A stretch of 64,000 bases of DNA from a virus. Location of the stretch: the IMG/VR virus record IMGVR_UViG_3300037560_000207, positions 62,001-126,000 of that record; one strand, given 5' to 3'. The notes beneath the pieces are model-generated. The model had not been told where the DNA came from, ran no database searches, and saw only the letters and a list, made by a program, of their open reading frames with translations. Made by a program: the position numbers and the translations under genes. Positions 17,058-58,348 of the stretch are shown in pieces. Within the stretch, counting starts at the first letter, position 1; every line of letters begins with the position of its first letter.

Positions 17058-17286
17058 AGTTGCTTTTGTTGGTTTGACGGTAAAAGCTGTACCATCTTCT
17101 ATCTCGAAAGGTATTGGTTACCCTTATAGGGTCAAGTTGTGCTATAATCCCGGTCTCTGTTCATTCGGAGATGGACACACCATAGACGAAGCAATTAAAG
17201 ATGCGGCAATATCTATGCCAATTGATTGGACATCCGTAGAACGAAAAATTACTGAACTAGAATGGCAACGGATGTCTCATGTATAA
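17038..17286 (+). CDS. Hypothetical protein
   Basis: An 82-residue protein from ATG 17038 (AAAAAGAGGATACT upstream). Contains SFGDGHTIDEAIKDAAISM, reminiscent of HicB-like proteins (strand, then DxxEAxxxA helix), though without the rest of the family signature. A terminator-like hairpin follows its stop. Confidence 0.55.
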   Translation: MITWADKVAFVGLTVKAVPSSISKGIGYPYRVKLCYNPGLCSFGDGHTIDEAIKDAAISMPIDWTSVERKITELEWQRMSHV

Positions 17287-17384: not shown

Positions 17385-17618
17385 ATGAATGAAGTAACGC
17401 TAGTTTCGAATGATGGTTGTGGCCTTCCTATTAGGATTCCGGTTACTGAAGGGACAACGCTGGAGAAGTTTCTGGAAGTCCATTTCGATGGTGACCCGAA
17501 TGAGTTCACAATTCGAGTAAGGGCAAATGGGACTACAGTAGAATGTCATCGGGATTATGTTTTGTGCGATGGAGATCGCGTTAGCCTCGCGCCAAACAAA
17601 ATCGAGGGGGCCGTGTAA
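17385..17618 (+). CDS. Ubiquitin-like (ThiS/MoaD-type beta-grasp) protein
   Basis: A 77-residue protein; TTGGAG lies 9 nt before ATG 17385. The pattern strand-strand-TTLEKFL helix-FTIRVRANGTTVE-YVLCDGDRVSLAP is that of the ThiS/MoaD branch of beta-grasp proteins (helix after the first hairpin, then DGDRV before the last strand). The C-terminus reads KIEGAV, not the double glycine of processed ubiquitin-like proteins, so any conjugation would need trimming or a different tail. It lies upstream of E2-like, JAMM and E1-like genes, which suggests it is the modifier of that cassette. Fold assignment is by pattern only. Confidence 0.55.
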   Translation: MNEVTLVSNDGCGLPIRIPVTEGTTLEKFLEVHFDGDPNEFTIRVRANGTTVECHRDYVLCDGDRVSLAPNKIEGAV

Positions 17619-17711
17619 CTTCGGTTATGGGTTAGCCGTGGATGTATCTTGGTGGTAATATAATGCTATCATCAAAATGCTTCACAACCTTCTCTAATAG
17701 GTAACACTGCA

Positions 17712-17936
17712 ATGAAGTACGAGGTTGATGTCAAAGAAGTTTGGACGCGAACATTCACAATTGAGTCTGATGTTCCACTAACAATCCAAGAACTTCGAGA
17801 AAAAGCTAATGAGCTACTCGAAGAGGGTGAGGAAGAAGAGGTTCTTGATTATTCTAGTACTTGTGAGCCCGAGGAGTGGCCTGCAAGAATTGTTGAGATT
17901 GTAGATGATAGAAGAGTTGTCTCTTCTATGAATTAA
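17712..17936 (+). CDS. Hypothetical acidic protein
   Basis: A 74-residue protein, MKYEVDVKEVWTRTFTIESD..., with a Glu-rich centre (ELLEEGEEEEVLDYS). It resembles small phage proteins with a strand-helix-strand fold. A TATAAT at 17659-17664 (GGTGGTAATATAATGC) upstream may be a promoter, without a clear -35. Confidence 0.6.
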   Translation: MKYEVDVKEVWTRTFTIESDVPLTIQELREKANELLEEGEEEEVLDYSSTCEPEEWPARIVEIVDDRRVVSSMN

Positions 17937-17952
17937 TTTAAAGGAGAAAGTG

Positions 17953-18204
17953 ATGAAGAAGGGTCCAGGAACGAACGAAGATCAGGTAAAGGCTCTCCAA
18001 ACAAAGGTTGGAGATGCTGGTGTAAAGAAAGCTGATGTAATCATTAGTCAATACACCCCGGAAGTAATTGCTCTTGCGTACAAGAGGGTACGTATCAACG
18101 CTGCTAAGAATAAACTTCCGAAGAATGTTACCAAAATGCTTGGTAAACTTTCGGATACGGACGCAGCAATTGTCCGTAATAAGCTGACGCAAGTTAAAGC
18201 GTAA
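17953..18204 (+). CDS. Basic helical hypothetical protein
   Basis: An 83-residue Lys-rich helical protein with AAAGGAGAAAGTG before ATG 17953. It has regular helices (EDQVKALQTKVGDAGVKKADV) and a terminator directly after it, so it may be expressed strongly. A DNA-binding or inhibitor role is possible; not recognised. Confidence 0.6.
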   Translation: MKKGPGTNEDQVKALQTKVGDAGVKKADVIISQYTPEVIALAYKRVRINAAKNKLPKNVTKMLGKLSDTDAAIVRNKLTQVKA

Positions 18205-18218
18205 GTAAGATTGAGGAT

Positions 18219-18248
18219 TGGGGGCAGACCGCCCCCATTCCTTTTTTT
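18219..18248 (+). terminator. Strong Rho-independent terminator
   Basis: TGGGGGC-AGACC-GCCCCCA is a perfect 7-bp G+C-rich stem with a 5-nt loop, followed by TTCCTTTTTTT. It is the clearest terminator in the window and closes the operon ending at 18204. Confidence 0.9.
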
Positions 18249-18336
18249 GTAGTGGAATGAATCTATGAATAGAATTACTTTGCAACCAATGGCATGTATT
18301 GGATGAGATCAAACATTTGTTCTAAGGAAATTAACT

Positions 18337-19614
18337 ATGAAAAAAGAGCGGCATCCATTAATAAATGAAAACAAAAAACTAATCCGCCGTGCTGCATTCA
18401 AATACTATAATTGGATGATGACAGAGTCGAAACATTCTGCCACCCTCTATGGGGATACAGTCCTGAGCCCCCTACGCGGGACCCCTGAAAATTTAGCCGA
18501 GATGAAAAAATGGATCACACGATTTTTAAATGGAATCAGTCCACGTATCCAAGTTGACCCGTGGGATGGAACAGAATGCATTGGCATCTCCAATCCAGAT
18601 GTATATAAAACCATTGCCACAGGTATGATTCCAAACTTGGGAAATGATATCATCGAAGACATTAATATAGCAATAGCCAGGCTCAAAATAACAGTAGAAA
18701 AAACAACAATCACGCCCTTTTCTTTAAAAGAAGCAATAGAAGAAATCATAATCATCACCAAAGCGTGGGAGAAGGTTAGTTTCCGAGATGACATATTATC
18801 AGTACTCGTGACTGGTGTCAGTCTAGAGGACGAAAATGAAACGGTGTCTCTGGGTGACTTTTGGGTGCATTTAGACCTCACCCATCCTTTAGGCTCACCA
18901 AATGTTGAATCGGTTGACAAAATCGAGTCTGAAAATGGATTCTATCATCCTCACGTATCTGGAGACGATGAACTCTGTGGTGGCGACGGCGATTTGCTAA
19001 TGAATGAAGCTCTCTGTCAAGGAAGATTAGAAGATTATTTCAGAATTGCCGAAGCAGTCCTTCGAACCTATAACAGCAATTCCCCACATGAAAATCTTTG
19101 TGAATGGTCTAATCCTAGCCACGAAGGAGACAACTATTGCGATAGGTGTGAAAAGTGGCGAGACGGAGACAGTACTTATTATTGTGAGGGGTGTGATAGA
19201 ACATACTGTGAAAATTGTGACCTGGGTGGTGGCTGTGTGTGCAATGAATGTGGTGAATGGCGATGTGGTGAATGTAGCTCCTCTTGTAAAGCCTGTAGAG
19301 AGACATCATGTTATGGATGCAATGAGAATCACTGCATCTATTGTCTAGATTCATGTATATCTTGTAATAATCATTGTTGCGAGTCATGCACACAATCCTG
19401 TACTAATTGCGGAGATGTAACCTGTAATGATTGTATGGAAACATGTGAATCCTGCGAAGATAATTGCTGTTCCGAATGCATTGATAAAAATTGTAGCGAA
19501 TGTAACAAGAACATCTGCAAAGAATGCCAGATGACTTGCGATCACTGTGGAATAGCTATGTGTGTTTCTTGTCTAGACGAACACAAGTGTCTGTTAGCTG
19601 AAATTCCTAACTAG
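18337..19614 (+). CDS. E2-like (UBC-fold) domain fused to a C-terminal Cys-rich RING-like array
   Basis: A 425-residue protein. Residues about 130-255 read like a ubiquitin-conjugating fold: a helix (SLKEAIEEIIIITKAW), strands ending DFWVHLDLTHP, then GFYHPHVSGDDELCGGDG, where HPHV (204-207) and Leu-Cys (Cys214) match the HPN...C active-site region of E2 enzymes. A helix (DYFRIAEAVLRTYNSNSP) follows, as in E2s. Residues about 255-420 hold more than 25 cysteines as repeated CxxC pairs (CDRCEKW, CEGCDRTYCENC, CNECGEWRCGEC and so on) plus His residues, like tandem RING/treble-clef zinc modules. An E2 with a built-in E3-like region is a plausible reading. Neighbours are a beta-grasp protein, a JAMM protease and an E1. 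All of this is motif-based inference. Confidence 0.6.
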   Translation: MKKERHPLINENKKLIRRAAFKYYNWMMTESKHSATLYGDTVLSPLRGTPENLAEMKKWITRFLNGISPRIQVDPWDGTECIGISNPDVYKTIATGMIPNLGNDIIEDINIAIARLKITVEKTTITPFSLKEAIEEIIIITKAWEKVSFRDDILSVLVTGVSLEDENETVSLGDFWVHLDLTHPLGSPNVESVDKIESENGFYHPHVSGDDELCGGDGDLLMNEALCQGRLEDYFRIAEAVLRTYNSNSPHENLCEWSNPSHEGDNYCDRCEKWRDGDSTYYCEGCDRTYCENCDLGGGCVCNECGEWRCGECSSSCKACRETSCYGCNENHCIYCLDSCISCNNHCCESCTQSCTNCGDVTCNDCMETCESCEDNCCSECIDKNCSECNKNICKECQMTCDHCGIAMCVSCLDEHKCLLAEIPN

Positions 19615-20333
19615 AGTGAACGATAATCGTGGATTTGTTTGATTAGGGATAGAAATTCGTCGGGCATCTGATTTTGTTTCATACGATTGACAGCTTCAGT
19701 AACCCATTCGATATTGTCTATATCGCCTGCAAGTTCTGGAAATCTAGAGCGTGGCATGATATGGTCAACCCAAGCATTATCCCCTAATATAAGGTTGTCA
19801 CCAGTGTAGGAGCACTTATAGTTTTGGCCCTCTAATTTCGCTAATAAAGCATCAGCATATTTTCTAGACCCTAGATTGGATTGGGAAATATGCTTAAGAT
19901 AACACGATTGACATGTGATATGTAGGTTACCACACCTGGTTACTCCAGGTAATTGCGAGAATCGACCACAACGAACACACAAATCCAGTTTATTAAGTCG
20001 ATCAATACGATTTTGATGGAGATTTCTTAACCTTAACCAACATCTATTACACATCTTTCGACCATCCTCTGATGGATTTTTTCCGCAATAAATACATTTA
20101 CCATCATCTAATCTCTTTGAGCGAACTTTACGATCCTTATCTCGAACCCTGATCTTACACTTAGAACAATGCTTGCTGCCCTCAATAGGTTGATCCCCAC
20201 AGCGAGGACATAAACCTTTAGTAAGCCGTTCTTGATATTGTTTTTTTTGTCTAGCTGTCTCTTTGTCTACGCAGACTTTGCATTTTTTTGCTGGTCGTTC
20301 GTGTGGTTGCCCACAAGCACTACATTTTTTCAT
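19611..20333 (-). CDS. HNH endonuclease with multiple zinc ribbons
   Basis: A 240-residue protein on the minus strand. The first 140 residues contain about ten CxxC knuckles (CSACG, CKVC, CPRCG, CSKC, CIYCG, CNRC, CVRCG, CQSC). The C-terminal domain reads YKCSYTG...AWVDHIMPRSRF... DIDNIEWVTEAVNRMK, an HNH nuclease core. Its stop shares the CTAG at 19611-19614 with the E2-like gene. It has its own divergent promoter (20370-20378). It is a free-standing mobile nuclease inserted between the two halves of the ubiquitin-like cassette. Confidence 0.75.
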   Translation of the reverse strand: MKKCSACGQPHERPAKKCKVCVDKETARQKKQYQERLTKGLCPRCGDQPIEGSKHCSKCKIRVRDKDRKVRSKRLDDGKCIYCGKNPSEDGRKMCNRCWLRLRNLHQNRIDRLNKLDLCVRCGRFSQLPGVTRCGNLHITCQSCYLKHISQSNLGSRKYADALLAKLEGQNYKCSYTGDNLILGDNAWVDHIMPRSRFPELAGDIDNIEWVTEAVNRMKQNQMPDEFLSLIKQIHDYRSL

Positions 20334-20349
20334 TATTTGTCTCCTGGGT

Positions 20350-20378
20350 TAATATATTTCTCTAATATATTATACACC
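20350..20378 (-). promoter_or_regulatory. Minus-strand promoter with AT-rich palindrome
   Basis: On the minus strand, CTTTGGTGTATAATAT gives a TATAAT box 40 nt before the endonuclease start, and TAATATAT...ATATATTA (20350-20373) is an inverted repeat overlapping it. GGTGTATAA matches three other intergenic sites. The palindrome could be an operator also affecting the + strand JAMM gene. Confidence 0.5.
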
Positions 20379-20398
20379 AAAGAGACCAAACAAAGGGA

Positions 20399-21337
20399 AT
20401 GAAAATGGAAAAAACGGAAGAATTTTTGAAACCAAAAATGACATTCGGTGATACTTTAAGATTTACAGCCTATGCTTATGCCAAACTTTTATACATTAGA
20501 GATTGTGGGAACACAGAAGTTGCTGGATATGGTGTTACCGCAACCGAAGACCCGTTGTTAGTCACAGATTTCGTTCTTACAAAGCAAGAATGCACCGGAG
20601 TTACATTCGATTTAGACCTAGAAGACGGAGCGGAATATATGGAACGAATGATGGATGCTGGATTAATGCCCTGGATGTATGCTAATCTTCTCATTCATTC
20701 CCACCCCGGCAATTCACCCAACCCAAGCAGCACCGATGAGATCAATTTCCAAAAAGCATTCTCTCATCCAGATTGGGCAATTATGCTAATCATAGCCAAA
20801 GACGACTCTATGTATTGTCGTCTAAAGCTTAATACAGGCCCTGGCGTCGAAAAATTATTGAATGTCCAGGTTGATTTTAGTCAAGATTTCCAGGCTTCCG
20901 ATCGCAAAACATGGAAAATAGAATATGACTCCAAAGTCACCAAACAGATAATCCAGATAAAGGGAACAGCAGGTGTCTTTCCAAAACCAGACGATCCACT
21001 CTGGTGGAATAGAGATGATGAAAAGTGGGTCGGATTCCACCACGTACAACAATCAGAGACTGACCTTGAGGATTTAGAGTGTTACTGGAGCGCTGATGGT
21101 GATGTCCAATATTGGGATGATTACGATGATACGTGGTATACATATGAGCCCAATGCTCAAAAATGGTATATAGAAGACCCAAAGGACAATAATGGGAAAA
21201 TGATGGAAATAAAAACACCTAAAAAGCCATGGACAAATAAAGTTGTAGCATGGGCTATAAAATATGCCAATGAACGTGATTCTATATTAAATGATCAATG
21301 CCCAGAAGAAGAAGTAGAAGTAAAGGAATTAATATGA
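20399..21337 (+). CDS. JAMM/JAB-domain metalloprotease
   Basis: A 312-residue protein. The JAMM zinc site is complete: Glu40 in TEVAGYG, then HSHPGNSPNPSSTD with His100, His102, Ser110 and Asp113. This family cleaves ubiquitin-like proteins from their C-terminal tails or conjugates. Residues 195-285 form a Trp/Asp/Tyr-rich second region (CYWSADGDVQYWDDYDDTWY), perhaps a binding domain. It overlaps the E1-like gene by 4 nt, so the two are co-translated. Role in processing or removing the 17385 beta-grasp protein is inferred. Confidence 0.8.
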   Translation: MKMEKTEEFLKPKMTFGDTLRFTAYAYAKLLYIRDCGNTEVAGYGVTATEDPLLVTDFVLTKQECTGVTFDLDLEDGAEYMERMMDAGLMPWMYANLLIHSHPGNSPNPSSTDEINFQKAFSHPDWAIMLIIAKDDSMYCRLKLNTGPGVEKLLNVQVDFSQDFQASDRKTWKIEYDSKVTKQIIQIKGTAGVFPKPDDPLWWNRDDEKWVGFHHVQQSETDLEDLECYWSADGDVQYWDDYDDTWYTYEPNAQKWYIEDPKDNNGKMMEIKTPKKPWTNKVVAWAIKYANERDSILNDQCPEEEVEVKELI

Positions 21338-21990
21338 TAAATATCGCGGATCGAAACATCAGACAACAAGAACTTGTTCCCCCAGAAAAACTCGCTACAA
21401 CGCGAGCAACAGTTGTGGGGGTAGGAGCTATCGGTCGCCAGGTGGCTCTTCAATTAGCGGCAATTGGCGTACCCCAAATTCAATTGATAGATCACGATAC
21501 GGTCAAAGTAGAGAACCTGGCAGCACAAAGCTTCTACGAAAATGATCTAGATATTTCCAAAGTCTATGCAGTAGCCGATATTTGTCGAGCAATTAACTCA
21601 GAAATCCAAGTAGTCACTGCAAATCGTAAATTTCAATCAATCCAGTTTAGTGGCGGTGTATGTTTTTGCTGCGTGGACGGGATAGAAACTCGACGCAGAA
21701 TCTTTAATGCAGTCAATCAACGTGCTAGTCTGTTTCTGGACGCCAGAATGGCGGCTGAATACCTTCGAATACTTACCGTATGGGATGATATATCTAAGCA
21801 ATATTTTCCAACAACGCTATTTCCCTCTTCAGAAGCATACAGAGGCTCTTGCACCGCAAAATCTACGATCTATTGCGCAAACATCGCAGCGGGAATGATG
21901 GTAGCACAATTTGCTAAGTGGCTACGCGGATGTGATCTTGATAAAGATATTGATATGAATCTTCTAACGAATGAAATGGGAGTGAAGTGA
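21334..21990 (+). CDS. ThiF/E1-like adenylyltransferase
   Basis: A 218-residue protein; ATG 21334 has AAAGGAATTA upstream. ATVVGVGAIGRQVALQLA is the nucleotide-binding loop (GVGAIG 29-34). LIDHDTVKVENLAAQ supplies the Asp and Asn/Gln positions of the ThiF/MoeB/E1 active site. CCVDGIETRRRI and SCTAKSTIYCANIAA follow the family order and offer candidate thioester cysteines. Length fits a stand-alone E1-like domain. It would adenylate the C-terminus of the ubiquitin-like protein. Confidence 0.8.
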   Translation: MINIADRNIRQQELVPPEKLATTRATVVGVGAIGRQVALQLAAIGVPQIQLIDHDTVKVENLAAQSFYENDLDISKVYAVADICRAINSEIQVVTANRKFQSIQFSGGVCFCCVDGIETRRRIFNAVNQRASLFLDARMAAEYLRILTVWDDISKQYFPTTLFPSSEAYRGSCTAKSTIYCANIAAGMMVAQFAKWLRGCDLDKDIDMNLLTNEMGVK

Positions 21991-22400
21991 TAGGTCCACA
22001 ATTATTAGATGTTCTTAAATTTCGAAAACGTTGCGATCCCATAAGAGATAACTCATGGAGTCTTGATTATCCAATAACACAAAACAATATTAAAATAGCA
22101 ATTGCTAACAATAATCTCCTTCCTCCTAAATCGAATGACATTGTACCATATTCCATTAATCCATTAATCCATGCTGCACGTATAGCATGGTTTATTATTC
22201 ATGGTTGGAATGACCCGATAAACATAGATGTAGGCGTACCATCATTAGGATGTTATCCAAAATGGCCACTAAAAGATGGTAATCATAGGTTCGCCGCAGC
22301 CATTATTCGGGATGACCATTTTATCCTTGCTAATATGTCTGGCGCAGTTAATGAAATCCAGAAATTTTTATGGGAAACAGTAGAAATAGGAATGAAATAG
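21987..22400 (+). CDS. ParB/sulfiredoxin-like hypothetical protein
   Basis: A 137-residue protein from GTG 21987, overlapping the E1-like gene by 4 nt. PLKDGNHRFAAAIIRDD resembles the DGxHRxxA motif of the ParB/Srx superfamily, which includes nucleotide-hydrolysing proteins. Operon position links it to the ubiquitin-like cassette, but its part is unclear. Confidence 0.5.
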   Translation: MIGPQLLDVLKFRKRCDPIRDNSWSLDYPITQNNIKIAIANNNLLPPKSNDIVPYSINPLIHAARIAWFIIHGWNDPINIDVGVPSLGCYPKWPLKDGNHRFAAAIIRDDHFILANMSGAVNEIQKFLWETVEIGMK

Positions 22401-25988: not shown

Positions 25989-26627
25989 GTGTTATCTTTA
26001 TTCGAACAACGATTTGGGAAACTGATAGCCATTTGGCCACAGGGAAAGAGTAAGCATAGAAAGATTCTATGGCTATGTCAATGTGATTGTGGCAATGAAG
26101 TAATTATAGGAGGTAGCTCACTTAAAAGTGGCCATACTAGAAGTTGTGGATGTCTGAAAATAGAAAAAATAAAACAACGATCAACCAAACATGGATATGG
26201 AAAATCTCATGTTTATCGAATATGGGCTAATATGATTCAAAGATGCACTAATCCAAATCGCAGTCAATATCAATATTACGGAGGTCGTAATATCAAAGTT
26301 TGTAAACGGTGGTCAAAGTTTAAAAACTTTCTAAAAGATATGGGTGAGGTGCCCCCTGGGCACCAAATTGATCGAATAAACAATAATGGTAATTATTGTA
26401 AATCCAATTGTCGTTGGGTAACTTCAAAACAACAACAAAGAAATAAACAAAACAACAGACCAATAACCTATAATGGTAGAACGCAACTTTTGATTGAATG
26501 GGCAGAAGAAACAGGTATTGATAGGGAAACTATTGCTGCGAGATTGAAAAGAGGTTGGTCTATCGAAAAAGCATTAATAACACCAATACAAAAACATAAA
26601 GTATACAAACTAAAAGATCGTGTCTAA
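25989..26627 (+). CDS. AP2/HNH-type homing endonuclease-like protein, copy 1
   Basis: A 212-residue protein from GTG 25989, first of seven related copies in this window. Layout shared by all: an N-terminal FGKL-x-V/I strand, a zinc knuckle (WLCQCDCGN...SCGCL), and a core MIQRCTNP...YYGGRNIKVCKRW-x-F-x2-FL-x-DMG. This is followed by QIDRINNNGNYC-x3-NCRWVT-x3-QQ-x-RN and a C-terminal helical DNA-binding repeat (WAEETGIDRETIAARL) ending GWSIEKALITP. The core resembles HNH/AP2 proteins that spread as free-standing homing endonucleases. There is no intron here; it sits between two unknown genes. Confidence 0.75.
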   Translation: MLSLFEQRFGKLIAIWPQGKSKHRKILWLCQCDCGNEVIIGGSSLKSGHTRSCGCLKIEKIKQRSTKHGYGKSHVYRIWANMIQRCTNPNRSQYQYYGGRNIKVCKRWSKFKNFLKDMGEVPPGHQIDRINNNGNYCKSNCRWVTSKQQQRNKQNNRPITYNGRTQLLIEWAEETGIDRETIAARLKRGWSIEKALITPIQKHKVYKLKDRV

Positions 26628-31910: not shown

Positions 31911-32522
31911 ATGTCGGGATTTATTAATTTAATAGGGAAAAGATTTGGTAAATTGATTGTTATTCGAAGAATGAATAATAATAAAAGCAATAAAATAACA
32001 TGGCTATGTAAATGTGATTGTGGTAATAAAAAAATAATTTGTGGTGGGGACTTAAAAAACGGACGCACTCAAAGTTGTAGATGCCTACTTATAACACATA
32101 GTCTTAGCGACCATAACTTATATCCTATATGGAACCAAATGATACAAAGATGTACAAATATTAATGATAAATATTATAATATTTATGGTGGCCGAGGAAT
32201 CAATGTTTGTAAGAAATGGAGAGAATTCCCGAGTTTTCTTAGAGATATGGGAAGTGGGTGGAAACCCGGATTGACTCTTGAACGAACTAATAATAAACTA
32301 GGATATTTCAAAGATAATTGCGAATGGGCAACTCAGAAACAACAACAGAGAAATAGGCGAGACAATCATTTGGAAACTTATAATACTAAAACACAATGCC
32401 TAGCAGCCTGGGAGGAAGAAACCGGTATTAACCAAAGTACTATTCGATATAGACTCAAGGTTGGTTGGTCAATAGAAAAAGCCTTAACAACACCAGTTCA
32501 AAAAAGGAGAAAAAAGAAATGA
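31911..32522 (+). CDS. AP2/HNH-type homing endonuclease-like protein, copy 2
   Basis: A 203-residue member of the seven-copy family (see 25989): FGKLIVIRR, WLCKCDCGN...SCRCL, MIQRCTN...YGGRGINVCKKW, LERTNNKLGYF-x2-NCEWAT. It lacks the second Cys-His details of some copies (SCRCL in place of SCGCL, NCEW in place of NCRW). It lies between the Ycf46-like ATPase and the DUF3150-like gene and overlaps the latter by 4 nt. Confidence 0.75.
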   Translation: MSGFINLIGKRFGKLIVIRRMNNNKSNKITWLCKCDCGNKKIICGGDLKNGRTQSCRCLLITHSLSDHNLYPIWNQMIQRCTNINDKYYNIYGGRGINVCKKWREFPSFLRDMGSGWKPGLTLERTNNKLGYFKDNCEWATQKQQQRNRRDNHLETYNTKTQCLAAWEEETGINQSTIRYRLKVGWSIEKALTTPVQKRRKKK

Positions 32523-40152: not shown

Positions 40153-40344
40153 ATGGCTAATCTATTAAATAAGTCAGCGACAAAAAAATTCATCTTGGCT
40201 AAGTTCAAAAGCCTCCGTCCCGGTATGCCAATAACAAGAATATCAATAGAGGCACTCGAAAGATTGGAAGCAGATTTACGAGCAAAGATTATCTTTGAAG
40301 TAAGAAGGCACCCATCTATTGGAAAAACTTTTCGCATTGATTAA
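40153..40344 (+). CDS. Small helical basic protein, possibly histone-fold-like
   Basis: A 63-residue protein: two or three helices, basic, with ITRISIEALERLEADLRAKIIFEV and the end HPSIGKTFRID. The strand-x-S-x-EALE-x-LE helix pattern and terminal GKTF recall the short bacterial histone-fold proteins found in some genomes. This is a weak resemblance; other helical bundles are equally possible. Confidence 0.45.
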   Translation: MANLLNKSATKKFILAKFKSLRPGMPITRISIEALERLEADLRAKIIFEVRRHPSIGKTFRID

Positions 40345-40960
40345 TTTAACAAATAAAATATTTGGAAGATTAAGAATAATTTGCCGTACATCAAATAATA
40401 AATGGGGCTCACCAAGATGGTTATGTAAATGTAGTTGTGGTAATGAAACAATTACTGAGGGTTCTAGTTTAAAAAACGGAAGCACTAAAAGTTGTGGATG
40501 TTTGAAAAAAGAAGGCAATAATTATAAACATGGCAACAATACAACAAATAAAAGAACACAAATTTATAGAGCTTGGGCTGCCATGTTAAATAGATGTAAC
40601 AACACTAAATATGAAAGATATCATCAATGGGGTAAAAGAGGAATAAAAGTTTGTAATAGGTGGTATAAATTCGAAAATTTTCTAGAAGATATGGGCAATC
40701 CTCCTACAAAATATCATTCTCTTGATAGAATTAATAATGATGGTAATTACTGTAAATCAAACTGTCGTTGGGCGACCCCAAAAGAACAGGGTCGCAATAA
40801 AAGAAACAATAGACTTATATCATTCAACGACAAAACACAATGTCTATCTGCATGGGCAGAAGAATACAAAATAAAATCGAGCATAATAGCGGATAGACTA
40901 AAACATAATTGGCCTATTAAAAAAGCTTTAATAACTCCTCCTAAAAAATGGAAAATTTAA
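40319..40960 (+). CDS. AP2/HNH-type homing endonuclease-like protein, copy 3
   Basis: A 213-residue frame beginning at TTG 40319, inside the preceding gene; a second TTG at 40337 (LINLTNKIFGRL) fits the family start better. Signature elements: WLCKCSCGN...SCGCL, MLNRCNN...WGKRGIKVCNRW, DRINNDGNYC-x3-NCRWAT, WAEEYKIKSSIIADRL. Compared with sisters, the GGRG segment is changed to GKRG. Its stop overlaps the start of the deaminase gene (TAATG). Confidence 0.7.
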   Translation: MEKLFALINLTNKIFGRLRIICRTSNNKWGSPRWLCKCSCGNETITEGSSLKNGSTKSCGCLKKEGNNYKHGNNTTNKRTQIYRAWAAMLNRCNNTKYERYHQWGKRGIKVCNRWYKFENFLEDMGNPPTKYHSLDRINNDGNYCKSNCRWATPKEQGRNKRNNRLISFNDKTQCLSAWAEEYKIKSSIIADRLKHNWPIKKALITPPKKWKI

Positions 40961-44721: not shown

Positions 44722-44751
44722 TTTTAAAGCTATACTTGATTGGTAGAATTT

Positions 44752-45405
44752 ATGTCGAAATTTATTGATTTGACGAGACAAAAGTTTGGGAGACTTGAAG
44801 TATTAAAACGGGTTGAAAACAATAAACAGAATAAGCCTCAATGGTTATGTCAATGTAATTGTGGAAATAAATCAATCGTTTCTGGTGGTAATCTTAAAAA
44901 TGGTAGTGTAAGAAGTTGTGGATGTTTACAAAAAGAAAAAGTTATAATCAATAATATTAATAAAACAATACACAGCCATTGTCGAAATAGAAAATCAACT
45001 GGATTTTATAATTCGTGGCATCAAATAATTCAAAGGTGTACTAATCCTAATAACGAAGCTTATCATAATTACGGTGGTCGAGGGATTATTGTTTGTAAAC
45101 GATGGTTAAAATTTGAGAATTTTCTTAAAGATATGATAAAAAGATGGAAACCTGGATTACAAATTGAACGGAGAAATAATAATAAAGGATATTATAAAAA
45201 GAATTGCAAATGGGCTACCAGGAAACAGCAAGCTAGAAATAGACGAGACAATCTTTATGTTTCTTATAATGGAGAAAATAGACTTTTTGTAGAATTATAC
45301 GAAGAACATAACATGCCTCGTAAAATTGTGCATAATAGATTTTATAATTATGGATGGACCATAAGAAGAGCTTTAACAACACCGGTAAAAAAGCGGAGTA
45401 AATAA
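44752..45405 (+). CDS. AP2/HNH-type homing endonuclease-like protein, copy 4
   Basis: A 217-residue copy from ATG 44752. FGRLEVLKR, WLCQCNCGN...SCGCL, IIQRCTN...YGGRGIIVCKRW, QIERRNNNKGYY-x3-NCKWAT, and a C-terminal YEEHNMPRKIVHNRF ending TIRRALTTP. The NCKW in place of NCRW and the divergent C-terminal repeat suggest a different target specificity. Inserted right before the BrxL-like gene. Confidence 0.75.
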   Translation: MSKFIDLTRQKFGRLEVLKRVENNKQNKPQWLCQCNCGNKSIVSGGNLKNGSVRSCGCLQKEKVIINNINKTIHSHCRNRKSTGFYNSWHQIIQRCTNPNNEAYHNYGGRGIIVCKRWLKFENFLKDMIKRWKPGLQIERRNNNKGYYKKNCKWATRKQQARNRRDNLYVSYNGENRLFVELYEEHNMPRKIVHNRFYNYGWTIRRALTTPVKKRSK

Positions 45406-48095: not shown

Positions 48096-48734
48096 ATGCC
48101 TAGTAAAATAAACTTAATTGGTAAACAATTTGGAAGACTTCTAGTTGTAAAAAAAGCTGGTATTGCTAAAACCAATCAAGTTCTTTGGTTATGTTTGTGT
48201 AATTGCGGGAAAACAACAACCGTTTATGGTGGAAACCTTTCAACCGGCCATACAAAAAGCTGTGGGTGTCTTGATATAGAGAAAAAAATACAAAGAGCAA
48301 CTAAACATGGCTATGAAGGGTCTAGAATTTATATAACATGGAATTCTATGATTCAACGATGCACTAATCCAAAAAGAAAAAATTATCCAAATTATGGTGG
48401 TCGTGGAATTAGAGTCTGTGAAAGATGGTTAAAATTTGAAAATTTTCTTGCAGATATGGGAGAACAACCATTAAATCGTCAGATAGATAGAATAAACAAT
48501 AACGAAGGATACTATCTAGAGAATTGTCGCTGGGCCACAAGAATACAACAAGCTAGGAATAAACAAAATAGTTGTATGGAAACTTATAAGGGAAAAACCC
48601 AATGTATGTCTGCGTGGGCAGAAGAATATAATATTTCATATCATGTTTTACGCGATAGAATAGGTAAATTAGGTTGGTCAATAGGAAAAGCTTTAATCAC
48701 CCCAATAAGAAAACTTAAAAGGAAAAGGAAATGA
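48096..48734 (+). CDS. AP2/HNH-type homing endonuclease-like protein, copy 5
   Basis: A 212-residue copy: FGRLLVVKKAG, WLCLCNCGK...SCGCL, MIQRCTNP...YGGRGIRVCERW, QIDRINNNEGYY-x3-NCRWAT, WAEEYNISYHVLRDRI. Closest in pattern to copy 1. Overlaps the ThyX start by 4 nt. Confidence 0.75.
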   Translation: MPSKINLIGKQFGRLLVVKKAGIAKTNQVLWLCLCNCGKTTTVYGGNLSTGHTKSCGCLDIEKKIQRATKHGYEGSRIYITWNSMIQRCTNPKRKNYPNYGGRGIRVCERWLKFENFLADMGEQPLNRQIDRINNNEGYYLENCRWATRIQQARNKQNSCMETYKGKTQCMSAWAEEYNISYHVLRDRIGKLGWSIGKALITPIRKLKRKRK

Positions 48735-54788: not shown

Positions 54789-55424
54789 ATGGGAGCACAT
54801 CTAATTGATTTAGTAGGAAAAAAATTTGGACGACTTATAGTTTTAGAACGGATTGATGATATTAATGGTAAACCGACAAGATGGTTGTGTAGATGTAATT
54901 GCAATAAAAAAATAACGGTTTTAGGTTATAATCTTAAAAATGGTAATACAAAAAGTTGTGGATGCTTAAAAATAAGACATGGTCATCGCACTATTACAAT
55001 AACATCTCCTACTTATCAATCGTGGCGTGATATGATTCAGCGATGTACAAATCTAAAATATAAACAATATCATTATTATGGTGGTCGTGGAATTACTGTT
55101 TGTAAGAAATGGAGAAATTCTTTTGAAATCTTTTTAGAAGATATGGGGGAGACACCTAAAGGATGTCAGATTGATAGAATTAACAATGATGGTAATTATT
55201 GCAAAGAAAATTGTCGTTGGATCACTCCTAAAAAACAAGCGAGAAATAGACGGAATAATCTTTACAAAACATATAAAGGGAAAACTCAACTTGTAATTGA
55301 ATGGGCAGAAGAATATAATATTCCATATGGAGTTTTGTCAATAAGATTATATAAACTTGGTTGGTCTATGGAAAAAGCATTAATTACTTCGGTCAAACAA
55401 TATAAAAAAGGAGAATTATTATGA
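54789..55424 (+). CDS. AP2/HNH-type homing endonuclease-like protein, copy 7
   Basis: A 211-residue copy: FGRLIVLERID, WLCRCNCNK...SCGCL, MIQRCTN...YYGGRGITVCKKW, QIDRINNDGNYC-x3-NCRWIT, WAEEYNIPYGVLSIRL, ending GWSMEKALITS. CNCNK replaces the usual CxCGN, otherwise intact. Overlaps the ribonucleotide reductase start by 4 nt. Confidence 0.75.
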   Translation: MGAHLIDLVGKKFGRLIVLERIDDINGKPTRWLCRCNCNKKITVLGYNLKNGNTKSCGCLKIRHGHRTITITSPTYQSWRDMIQRCTNLKYKQYHYYGGRGITVCKKWRNSFEIFLEDMGETPKGCQIDRINNDGNYCKENCRWITPKKQARNRRNNLYKTYKGKTQLVIEWAEEYNIPYGVLSIRLYKLGWSMEKALITSVKQYKKGELL

Positions 55425-58348
55425 CAATGCCTTTATACGAACCAACCAGTTTTGCTTTACAAATATTCAAAGATAGATATGCAATTCATCAGGAAGAATC
55501 ATTTGCACAAGCATGTGAACGAGTTTCTAGGGTAATTGCTGATGCCGAAACAGGTACTAAAAGAGATGAATATTTTCAACGATTTTTGGATATTTTAGTA
55601 ACCAATCGATTTTCTCCAGGTGGTAGAATTTGGCGTGGAGCAGGTCGTCCACGAGGACAATTACTTAATTGTTTTTGTATTCCAGCAGAGGATAGTAGAG
55701 AAGGGTGGGGAGATGTACTTAGATCAGTTACTATTATATCCGGTACTGGAGGTGGGGTCGGAATCAATTTTTCTAAAATCCGTCCAAGAGGTACTTCTAT
55801 CCGTGGTACGGGAGGTGAGGCTACCGGCGCGGTTAGTCTTATGCGAGCAGTCAACGCTGTCTGTAATGAATTACGTGAAGGTGGTGGAAGGCGATCAGCT
55901 TTGATGTTCTGTTTAAAATATGATCATCCAGATTTAATAGAATTCTTGGAAGCCAAATTGGATGATAAAGAACTTAATAACGCTAATATCTCTGTCCTTA
56001 TTGATAATGATTTCTTAAAATTATTGGATGAGGATGGAGAAATTATTTTTAAATGGCAAGGAGAAAAACGTGGAAGAATTGCAATTAAAAGGGTTTGGGA
56101 TAAGATTATTCAAAATGCATGGAGAAATGGTGATCCAGGATTTTTGAACATTGGTTTAATGAATGAACAGAATACTATATCATATACAAAAGACGGCGAG
56201 ATATCATCAACAAATCCGTGTTTTACAAAAGAAATGAGACTTCATACAAGTCGTGGTATATTATCTTTACAAGAATTATTTGAGTCTGGTTGTTTTAATC
56301 GAGTAGTAACTGACAATAGATGTATAAATACAATATTGGATGGGGTAAAGATTCGTAATGCAAGCTCTGTCAAATTAACAGGATATCAACAACAAATTTA
56401 CAGAGTTATTACTTCTCATGGGAGTATAATAAGATGCACGAAATATCATGAGTTTATAACTCCAAGGGGTCGTAGACCATTATTTGCACTTAATCCTGGT
56501 GATTGGATAAATACACAACAAAAAGAAGGTTGTTGGGGAAATATTGGCGATTATGATGATGGATTAATTATTGGGTCTTTCGTCGGTGACGGTACCTTAT
56601 CATATGGAACAACCGATTTACCAAGTATGTGTCTTGATTATTGGAACGAAGAAGACTTATGTAATCATATGTTAAGATTAGTTAATAAAAAAGTAGCAAT
56701 TTATGAAAATAATAATGATTGTAGGAAATATGGTCCTTTATCTATTATAAAATGCCTCAAATATGCAAAATTACGGATTTCCTCGGCTAGATTAACGAAA
56801 TATTTTGAGCAGAAATTTCAAATACATGTTGAAACCCTTAAAACCAAATTACCAGAAGCTGTCTGGAAGGGATCAAGAGATATGGTTAGAGGATATCTAG
56901 CTGGTATATTTCAGGCTGATGGTTCTGTTCAGTTAAAGGATCGTGGGACAAAGGGTTCTCTTTGTGTTCGTTTATCTCAAAGTAATGAACAATTACTCAG
57001 AGAAATTCAAATATTATTGAGCAATTTTGGGATTATGTCATCTATACACAAAAGACGAAATGCTGATTATAGAAATTTACCAGATGGACAAGGTGGATTA
57101 AAACCATATTGGTGTAAAACTCAATATGAATTAATAATAAATAGACCAAATGCAGTTGTTTTTGAAAATTTAATAGGTTTTTCTGGTAACAAACAAAAAC
57201 AATTATCTGATGCTTTGGACAAGAGGGGCAGAGAATGTCAAAAGAAGGAAAGATTTATTGTACAAATTAAATCTATTAATCAAGACGGGATAGAAAATGT
57301 CTATTGTTTGAACGAACCAGAAACTCATTCATTGATAGTCAATGGATTGGTTGTAGGAAATTGTGGAGAAATCCCGCTTGAGGATTATGGATGTTGTTGT
57401 TTAGGTGCAATTAATTTATATACTCATGTTTCAAACGGTGAAATTGATTGGGATTTGCTCGAAGAAACGGTTTCTATAGGTGTTAGATTTTTGGATAATG
57501 TATTAGATCAAAACAATTATCCACTTCCTATTATCCAAGAAACGTCTCAAAAACACCGTCGTATTGGTTTAGGAGTCATGGGACTTCATGATATGCTACT
57601 TGAGCTTGATCTTAAATACTCCAGTAAAGAAGCTAGAGATTTTGTTAACAAGGTGATGAATTGCATAAAGAAACAAGCTTATCATTCTAGTATAAGAATT
57701 GCGATAGAAAAAGGGTCGTTCCACGCTTTTGATGTAAATCAGCATACTAAGACTGGTTTTGTTAAAAAGTGTTTGACACGAAATCATCATCGTCTAATTA
57801 AAGAACATGGTCTTCGTAATTGTGCCATACTTTGTATCGCCCCGACTGGGACTACATCTATTGTAGCTGGTTGTTCATCTGGTATTGAGCCATTGTTTCA
57901 ACCTGTCTACGAAAGACGTTTTAATAAACATAAAGATATGCATGATGATGAAAAAAGAGATAAAGCTACAGAAATAATAGTTCATCCATTATTAAAGAAA
58001 TTTTTAGAAGATCGTCGATCTACAAAACATTTTCAGGGTGCTCATGATATCTCACCAGAAGATCATTTAGCTATGCAAGCGGTTTGTCAAAGACACATAG
58101 ACAATTCTATTTCAAAGACAGTTAATTGCCCTGTTGATTATCCTGTAGAAGAATTATCTGAAATAATAAAAAAATATATCAGTGAACTCAAAGGGATTAC
58201 TATTTACAGAGATACTAGTAAAGGAAAATCACCACTTGTTCCGCTTCCCTTATCAGAAGCAAAAAAGTATTTGGATCAAATGAAAGAGGAAGCTGCTGTG
58301 GATGATTGTCCAAGTGGTGTATGTGATATTTCGAAAGGTGGTAATTAA
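55421..58348 (+). CDS. nrdJ: Class II ribonucleotide reductase (NrdJ) containing an intein
   Basis: A 975-residue frame: exteins 1-266 and 648-975 (594 residues together) and intein 267-647. Extein features: RFSPGGRIWRGAG, FCIPAEDSREGW, GTGGGVGINFSKIRPRGT, the catalytic NP-CGEIPLE strand, NCAILCIAPTGTTSIVAGCSSGIEPLF, and a C-terminal redox pair in CPSGVC. The architecture is that of adenosylcobalamin-dependent RNR, which works without oxygen and needs host cobalamin. No cobalamin riboswitch was seen. It reduces ribonucleotides for phage DNA synthesis. The endonuclease upstream and the gene downstream overlap it by a few bases. Confidence 0.9.
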   Translation: MTMPLYEPTSFALQIFKDRYAIHQEESFAQACERVSRVIADAETGTKRDEYFQRFLDILVTNRFSPGGRIWRGAGRPRGQLLNCFCIPAEDSREGWGDVLRSVTIISGTGGGVGINFSKIRPRGTSIRGTGGEATGAVSLMRAVNAVCNELREGGGRRSALMFCLKYDHPDLIEFLEAKLDDKELNNANISVLIDNDFLKLLDEDGEIIFKWQGEKRGRIAIKRVWDKIIQNAWRNGDPGFLNIGLMNEQNTISYTKDGEISSTNPCFTKEMRLHTSRGILSLQELFESGCFNRVVTDNRCINTILDGVKIRNASSVKLTGYQQQIYRVITSHGSIIRCTKYHEFITPRGRRPLFALNPGDWINTQQKEGCWGNIGDYDDGLIIGSFVGDGTLSYGTTDLPSMCLDYWNEEDLCNHMLRLVNKKVAIYENNNDCRKYGPLSIIKCLKYAKLRISSARLTKYFEQKFQIHVETLKTKLPEAVWKGSRDMVRGYLAGIFQADGSVQLKDRGTKGSLCVRLSQSNEQLLREIQILLSNFGIMSSIHKRRNADYRNLPDGQGGLKPYWCKTQYELIINRPNAVVFENLIGFSGNKQKQLSDALDKRGRECQKKERFIVQIKSINQDGIENVYCLNEPETHSLIVNGLVVGNCGEIPLEDYGCCCLGAINLYTHVSNGEIDWDLLEETVSIGVRFLDNVLDQNNYPLPIIQETSQKHRRIGLGVMGLHDMLLELDLKYSSKEARDFVNKVMNCIKKQAYHSSIRIAIEKGSFHAFDVNQHTKTGFVKKCLTRNHHRLIKEHGLRNCAILCIAPTGTTSIVAGCSSGIEPLFQPVYERRFNKHKDMHDDEKRDKATEIIVHPLLKKFLEDRRSTKHFQGAHDISPEDHLAMQAVCQRHIDNSISKTVNCPVDYPVEELSEIIKKYISELKGITIYRDTSKGKSPLVPLPLSEAKKYLDQMKEEAAVDDCPSGVCDISKGGN
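56219..57361 (+). mobile_element. Intein with LAGLIDADG homing endonuclease in nrdJ
   Basis: A 381-residue insertion between Pro266 and Cys648 of the RNR. It starts with Cys (CFTKEMRLHTSRG, block A), has a block B-like stretch (GSIIRCTKYHEFITPRG), two LAGLIDADG motifs (LIIGSFVGDGTL and VRGYLAGIFQADGSV), and ends EPETHSLIVNGLVVGN followed by Cys (blocks F/G, terminal Asn). All residues for self-splicing are present, and the insertion point NP/CGEIPL is a known RNR intein site, at a catalytic residue. Confidence 0.95.

Follow-up and report, generated by a model that had tools for sequence, protein, structure and literature searches.

A candidate ubiquitin-like conjugation and deconjugation cassette in a lineage of large tailed phages

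So far, the labelling of proteins with ubiquitin-like modifiers has been known from eukaryotes, from some archaea and, in bacteria, from defence or plasmid systems. To our knowledge, the prokaryotic conjugation systems are cellular, and are mostly anti-phage defence or cargo of mobile elements. Could a phage encode such a pathway for itself? The question is raised by a stretch of 64,000 nucleotides (hereafter the window), bases 62001-126000 of the 181,360-bp IMG/VR virus record IMGVR_UViG_3300037560_000207. The same record holds a match to a terminase large subunit and is therefore assigned to a tailed phage. A preliminary description of the window, made from the sequence alone, proposed that a complete ubiquitin-like conjugation cassette lies there within 5 kb. 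Having followed this up, we consider it likely that this locus gives a lineage of large tailed phages a self-contained cassette for attaching and removing a ubiquitin-like modifier; the catalytic steps, the E3 (ligase) role of an attached cysteine array and the class of targets are what we infer.

The four genes and their conservation

Four open reading frames (ORFs), encoding a ubiquitin-like protein (Ubl), a conjugating-enzyme-like (E2-like) protein with a Cys array, a JAMM protease and an activating enzyme (E1), lie within window 17385-21990, all on the + strand and where the preliminary description had placed them, with the JAMM site (HSHP-x7-SxxD) and Cys214 as it described:

17385..17618, + strand: Ubl, a 77-aa beta-grasp modifier precursor; it ends ...PNKIEG, then AV, with a predicted mature C-terminus at Gly75
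18337..19614, + strand: E2-like protein with a C-terminal zinc-knuckle array, 425 aa; residues 1-124 helical, 125-257 UBC-like, 268-418 CxxC
18709..19107, + strand: UBC-like (E2) domain; H204-P-H206 at 18946-18954, putative catalytic Cys214 at 18976-18978
19138..19590, + strand: tandem CxxC (zinc-knuckle) array; 18 CxxC, about 40 Cys in 158 aa
20399..21337, + strand: JAMM/MPN+ metalloprotease, 312 aa; Glu40 at 20516-20518, H100-S-H102-P...S110..D113 at 20696-20737
21334..21990, + strand: E1/ThiF-like activating enzyme, 218 aa; Cys173 in G-S-C-T-A-K at 21850-21852

The ORF list places the Ubl start upstream at 17262; the homologues instead start at the ATG of 17385, 6 nt downstream of a GGAG. 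The 4-nt overlaps reported between JAMM, E1 and the next gene are indeed present (ATGA for JAMM/E1, GTGA for E1/next gene). The proposal of a complete set within 5 kb holds for all four parts, with the qualification that an inverted HNH gene (19611-20333) sits inside the set; several relatives lack it at this junction.

Relatives were drawn from IMG/VR by searches with the E1 and E2 proteins. All four genes stand in the same order in 14 phage records, namely the window, 11 records searched whole and contigs L061 and L062; L009/L010 and L012/L013 are near-duplicates among them. The neighbourhood is therefore conserved, as the preliminary description would predict: the four genes form a block in 13 phage contigs besides the window and in 6 contigs from metagenome-assembled genomes (MAGs), with invariant catalytic residues. 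Searching whole records recovered all four genes in 11/14; the exceptions are L016, whose contig ends after JAMM and E1, one 30-kb fragment, and G002, a 160-kb record with a related ribonucleotide reductase and 0/4 cassette genes. Two carriers of the cassette, G001 and G003, were found via an AAA ATPase and ribonucleotide reductase and not via the cassette itself. The cassette genes occur together or not at all. Moreover, they are the only genes common to all loci, flanking genes being shared by some.

The MAG contigs carry titles of Phycisphaerae, Phycisphaerales, Planctomycetes, Blastopirellula and Kuenenia, and their cassette E1s are about 49-53% identical. In an E1 tree the MAG copies make up one supported branch beside the phage copies, inner support being weak. 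One planctomycete MAG cassette adjoins a DUF2958 gene, a family known mainly from mobile elements (plasmids or integrative elements). Because contigs assigned to Planctomycetota carry the cassette, our guess at the phage host is a member of that phylum. No E2 relatives were found in GTDB contigs (searched with a first, three-sequence profile) or in INPHARED phages, and tblastn of Ubl, JAMM and E2 against INPHARED phages likewise found nothing.

The modifier, its enzymes and the cysteine array

The preliminary description took the product of 17385 to be a beta-grasp protein. An AlphaFold2 model from nine homologues shows the b-b-a-b-b-b order of that fold with moderate confidence (predicted local distance difference test, pLDDT, 68), and its Foldseek matches in the PDB at ranks 1-20 are almost all ubiquitin, SUMO or NEDD8 (prob 1.00, template modelling score about 0.5-0.7), which bears the assignment out. 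The top match is the ubiquitin of Caldiarchaeum subterraneum. At the level of sequence, the window Ubl reaches Pfam ThiS marginally (0.13) and a planctomycete homologue does so at 1.3e-3.

A PxK[IV][DE]G block is present in 19/19 Ubl homologues, and conservation halts exactly at its Gly. None of the 19 ends there: the tails beyond the Gly measure 1, 1, 1, 1, 1, 1, 2, 2, 3, 3, 3, 4, 6, 6, 9, 10, 10, 13 and 83 residues. The longest belongs to phage G003 (L045), in which the Ubl is fused after ...PKKIEG-DAG to a homologue of window ORF 17950-18204. This ORF encodes a small helical accessory protein that stands alone in the window, L005 and L044 and is Ubl-fused in L045, by both hidden Markov model (HMM) and sequence. 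Since every Ubl Gly carries a tail, the most economical interpretation is cleavage by a protease after that Gly. The cassette JAMM is the candidate for this cleavage, and probably matures the precursor to a single C-terminal Gly. The preliminary description had correctly remarked that the modifier lacks a terminal double Gly; this would be explained by a precursor in which one invariant Gly precedes a tail that can be cut off. There is precedent for both features. The pro-ubiquitin of Caldiarchaeum has a 9-residue tail that is cut by Rpn11/JAMM before E1 can act (PMC5654768), and a single conserved C-terminal Gly is likewise reported for the Ubls of the row 6d operons (PMC1779556).

For the JAMM the Prok-JAB model gives 4.7e-5, a score of 23.7 bits where the cutoff is 25, and the Glu and HxHP-x7-S-x2-D of the protein are unchanged in every aligned homologue. 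The C-terminal half of the phage copies (about residues 200-265) carries W/Y-rich acidic repeats, YWDD..TWYTYEP...WYIEDP, and the planctomycete copies are shorter there.

The E1 matches Pfam ThiF at 5.7e-24, and MoeB (E 7.6e-13), ThiF, UBA5/6/7 and BubCD in PDB profile searches. Its clade keeps RxxRQ, GxGxxG, an acidic D, Lys76, Asp115 and the Cys in G-x-C-T-x-[KR], the sole departure from G-x-C-T being D-R-C-T in L044. The predicted catalytic residue, Cys173, is kept in 35/35 E1s of phages and mobile elements in the alignment, and the protein has no paired CxxC zinc site of the MoeB/ThiF kind.

From its N-terminus, the 18337 product runs through a helical region, a UBC-like domain and a Cys array. 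In the AlphaFold2 model the middle domain comprises a helix (130-143), strands 147-150, 153-164, 169-180 and 189-192, and helices 218-227 and 231-243, with H204-P-H206 and C214 in the loop between the last strand and helix 218-227. This is the order of elements described for bacterial E2s (PMC1779556). HPH-x5-7-LC, L-C-x-G and a downstream YN...P...W are invariant in 18/18 E2 homologues, and in the window and L006 proteins the distance from His to Cys is 10, as in UBE2D2. Aligned by hhalign to UBE2D2, the domain is colinear over 114 columns, HPH...C falling onto HPN...C and YN-SP onto NP-DP; the score of 22.6, obtained with a eukaryotic side of five E2 sequences, exceeds the maximum of 21.3 over 100 column shuffles (P 0.006). 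This match to eukaryotic E2s is suggestive, not decisive. Motif, topology and the weak, colinear profile match together point to the E2 identity claimed in the preliminary description.

The same description called the Cys-rich region RING-like. Here the fusion of the E2-like domain to a large CxxC array stands and the RING assignment does not. Homologues carry 8-21 CxxC knuckles, 18 of them in the window protein, mostly spaced by 7/8 residues (CxxC-x4-CxxC-x3) and with few His; varying copy number is expected of a modular array. The canonical RING pattern, C-x2-C-x9-39-C-x1-3-H-x2-3-C-x2-C-x4-48-C-x2-C, is not in the window protein and matches 2/18 E2 homologues, which is plausible by chance in such dense arrays. 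PDB profile matches of the array to PHD/FYVE/TRIM (E 0.004-0.05) were judged to be effects of Cys composition, and BFVD matches of the E2 protein appear to reflect Cys-rich hairpin arrays. By its sequence, then, the region is a tandem CxxC module distinct from RING. In L009/L010 the E2-array gene (L010 5962-7333) has a frame break inside the Cys array, identical in both, and the UBC-like part is intact.

Distant versions, proposed pathway and alternatives

E1 searches of INPHARED reach crAss-like Steigviridae, Flavobacterium phages and Xanthomonas/Erwinia phages. In crAss001 (gp79-gp76) and the Flavobacterium phage FpV4 the order is a Ubl-like N-domain with a long C-terminal extension, an E2-like protein (HSHV...CTG or HSHL...CIG), JAMM and ThiF, and genes for primase, uracil-DNA glycosylase and nucleases flank these blocks or lie near them. 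Their annotations read hypothetical, metalloprotease or 'thiamine biosynthesis protein'. Profiles of the window lineage and the crAss proteins match strongly for E1, at 27.7 against a shuffle maximum of 18.2 for E2 and weakly (29.4 vs 24.2) for JAMM. The hhalign comparison of the Ubl with the crAss Ubl profile was not significant, and so their homology is proposed from motif and gene order only. In Xanthomonas phage PhiXhv-12 (L003 4748-8624), a protein of 892 aa that contains HPHM...LCLG and, at its C-terminus, a Cys array is encoded next to ThiF; the 140-aa protein just upstream ends ASGG and may be a GG-type modifier, and no JAMM was seen adjacent. Similar blocks were noted in L018 (crAss001 gp79-gp76), L002, L004, L020-L025 and L019 (FpV4), with an HNH gene beside the Ubl-like gene in L025.

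We propose that JAMM would cut the Ubl precursor after the Gly of PxK[IV][DE]G and so free a short tail or the helical protein that is fused there in one phage. The single-domain E1 would then adenylate the exposed Gly and take the Ubl onto Cys173, from which it would pass to Cys214 of the E2 domain. The linked CxxC array would serve as a built-in E3 or substrate adaptor, directing the Ubl to lysines of proteins from host or phage, with early infection or replication as the probable stage, and the same JAMM would later strip the tag.

Several findings weigh against this pathway. The modifier ends in a single invariant Gly in place of Gly-Gly. In the E1, the Arg of NxxRQ is missing: the window protein has NLAAQ, and all 35 E1s have A/P/C/S/T/G/N/V at that position, so the contacts to ATP must differ. 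The E2 protein has His as the third residue of HPN (HPH in 18/18), its profile match (P about 0.006) is statistically weak, and no Pfam E2 model matches it. Moreover, its full-length model (low confidence, pLDDT 65) gave no UBC match in the PDB by Foldseek, and the domain searched alone gave no Pfam match and no useful PDB sequence match. Sequence-level PDB searches with JAMM and Ubl gave no useful relative either.

Could the same genes serve sulfur transfer? Here the Ubl would be a thiocarboxylate donor like ThiS, MoaD, CysO or QbsE, adenylated by ThiF and trimmed by JAMM (as in Qbs or CysO-Mec+), and the product a thiolated metabolite or tRNA. QbsE and CysO are sulfur-transfer examples of just this combination of Ubl, ThiF, JAMM and tail trimming, and the nearest Pfam family of the phage Ubl is ThiS. 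The combination is indeed found in sulfur-transfer clusters (PMC1779556). However, the gene for the UBC-like E2 is always present, the E1 has a CT-K Cys of E1 type and no paired zinc site, and none of the neighbouring genes examined was recognised as coding for a rhodanese, a cysteine desulfurase or thiamine/molybdopterin functions; the flanks, besides, are not conserved. The single-Gly end, which is not GG, also speaks against it. With an E2 protein present, a Cys of E1 type in the E1 and no sulfur genes recognised, we hold a sulfur-carrier role to be very unlikely. A counter-defence role, with Ubl, E1 and E2 as decoys or competitors and JAMM stripping tags from virions in a host armed with Bil-, CBASS- or Bub-type defence, draws on reports of bacterial Ubl systems whose targets are phages or enzymes of defence (Hor 2024 and Chambers 2024) and on the many de-SAMPylases of Borg elements, for which counter-defence has been proposed (PMC12660748). 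Yet decoys could do without their catalytic residues, which are intact in each of the four proteins even between distant phages, and the Ubl and E2 match no known defence family; this reading strikes us as more improbable still.

A role in defence or superinfection exclusion, in which the phage or its element would turn the cassette on competing phages, is harder to set aside, being a matter of purpose and not of chemistry: the pathway would work as in Bil, and the proposal overlaps with our own. The planctomycete cassette next to DUF2958, a context suggesting plasmids or integrative elements, and the HNH gene inside the cassette would suit such a role. It sits less well with a cassette that is nearly fixed in the phage lineage, not patchy as a defence island would be, that has no recognised effector gene, and whose crAss, Flavobacterium and Xanthomonas versions lie among replication genes. 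On balance we think exclusion unlikely. Near-fixation in the lineage, together with the distant versions among replication genes, is why we lean towards a conjugation pathway used in replication or takeover over one for counter-defence or the exclusion of rivals.

Neighbouring features and known systems

Three further features lie between the cassette genes:

17950..18204, + strand: small helical accessory protein, 84 aa; second ATG at 17953; recognised by HMM and sequence
18219..18247, + strand: hairpin and T run resembling an intrinsic terminator, located after the Ubl/helical pair and before the E2 gene; consensus match only
19611..20333, - strand: HNH endonuclease gene, a mobile insert outside the pathway; HNH_4 0.005, PHROG endonuclease VII 8.6e-7

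The hairpin has a stem of 7 pairs, 6 of them G-C, and the tail TTCCTTTTTT; as a consensus match it may keep the Ubl in excess over the enzymes. An HNH gene between E2 and JAMM is found also in L005 and L007, and this junction is free of HNH in L006, L010, L012, L014 and L015. Related HNH genes are inverted at the E2-JAMM junction in the window, L005 and L007 and in the JAMM-E1 gap in L014 (near 5309, - strand); the placement is homing into different junctions of one cassette. The gene at 21987-22400 was considered as a fifth member of the cassette and ruled out, having no homologue in related loci. It encodes a 137-aa protein with a ParB/Srx-like DGNHRFAAA motif and no family match. Elsewhere in the window, six or more related ORFs begin RFGKL...WLC.C.CG (25989-26627, 31911-32522, 40319-40960, 44740-45405, 48096-48734 and 54789-55424) and are probably an expanded family of dispersed mobile endonucleases. 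In L028, L029 and L030, relatives of window 55421-58348, the ribonucleotide reductase match spans about 4 kb against 2.9 kb, which suggests an intein or intron insertion of ~1 kb.

No description of phage Ubl-conjugation sets was found in the openly searchable literature, and a review of jumbo phages (PMC7824862) mentions neither Ubl, E2-like, JAB nor ThiF. A complete conserved set in phages would, if true, mean that phages themselves tag proteins. We tentatively raise the possibility that Ubl conjugation is a common, unrecognised phage function, in which at least four groups (the window lineage, crAss-like Steigviridae, Flavobacterium phages and Xanthomonas/Erwinia jumbo phages) would have Ubl, E2, JAMM and E1 genes, or those for E2 and E1, in the vicinity of replication genes and would label proteins in the course of takeover. 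In the window lineage this would be done with an E2-E3 in one polypeptide, bearing a tandem zinc-knuckle array, and a single-Gly modifier freed from a precursor. Such a fusion would be a minimal E2-E3 unlike RING, and the variable tails after the invariant Gly make precursor processing directly testable. Moreover, the cultured phages crAss001, FpV4 and PhiXhv, with related sets annotated as hypothetical or 'thiamine biosynthesis', bring the idea within reach of the bench.

Among these phages, the crAss-like and FpV4 sets share with the window lineage a Ubl-like domain, an E2-like protein (H[SP]H...C.G), JAMM and ThiF in the same order, but the crAss sequences are very distant, their Ubl has a long C-terminal extension and their E2 no Cys array. 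Xanthomonas PhiXhv shares the fusion of E2 and Cys array beside ThiF; it differs in having no adjacent JAMM and a candidate Ubl that ends GG.

Membership of PRTRC, which we take to be the same as the row 6d operons, was rejected: PRTRC_ThiF scores 25.1 bits against a cutoff of 144.75, no PRTRC_A/B/C model (NCBIfam) matches, and the E2 has the upstream His. The row 6d operons of bacterial plasmids and integrative and conjugative elements comprise Ubl, E1, E2-like, JAB and a helical protein (PMC1779556). Like them, the phage cassette encodes four components separately in one operon, with a small single-Gly Ubl and a mobile-element setting. Unlike them, its E2 keeps a His before the Cys and has a CxxC array, and no JAB-N domain was recognised. 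With Bil, Bub and type II CBASS (Cap2/Cap3; CBASS, cyclic-oligonucleotide-based anti-phage signalling system) it shares the logic of E1, E2 and JAB, and across its ThiF domain the phage E1 matches the profiles E1-E2, BilD and BubCD. Matches to PADLOC or NCBIfam models of these systems are confined to the ThiF and JAB domains and fall below cutoffs where given; Ubl and E2 match no defence-family model, in a set without Bub-specific Ubl or E2 models. The suggestion that a phage-borne arrangement may differ from Bil/Bub is supported, in that E1 and E2 are separate genes, the E2 is fused to the array, and no CD-NTase or effector was recognised nearby.

The operon of Caldiarchaeum subterraneum, with Ub, E1, E2, a small RING protein and Rpn11/JAMM (PMC5654768), is similar in its compactness, its Cys-rich partner and its tailed pro-modifier. 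In contrast to it, the present set is phage-borne and ends its modifier in a single Gly, its Cys array forms part of the E2 protein and is no RING, its E1 consists of one domain of 218 aa that lacks the Arg of NxxRQ, and its E2 has HPH and not HPN. The new features are the E2-array fusion, the single-Gly precursor and the location in a phage; otherwise this is a known kind of system.

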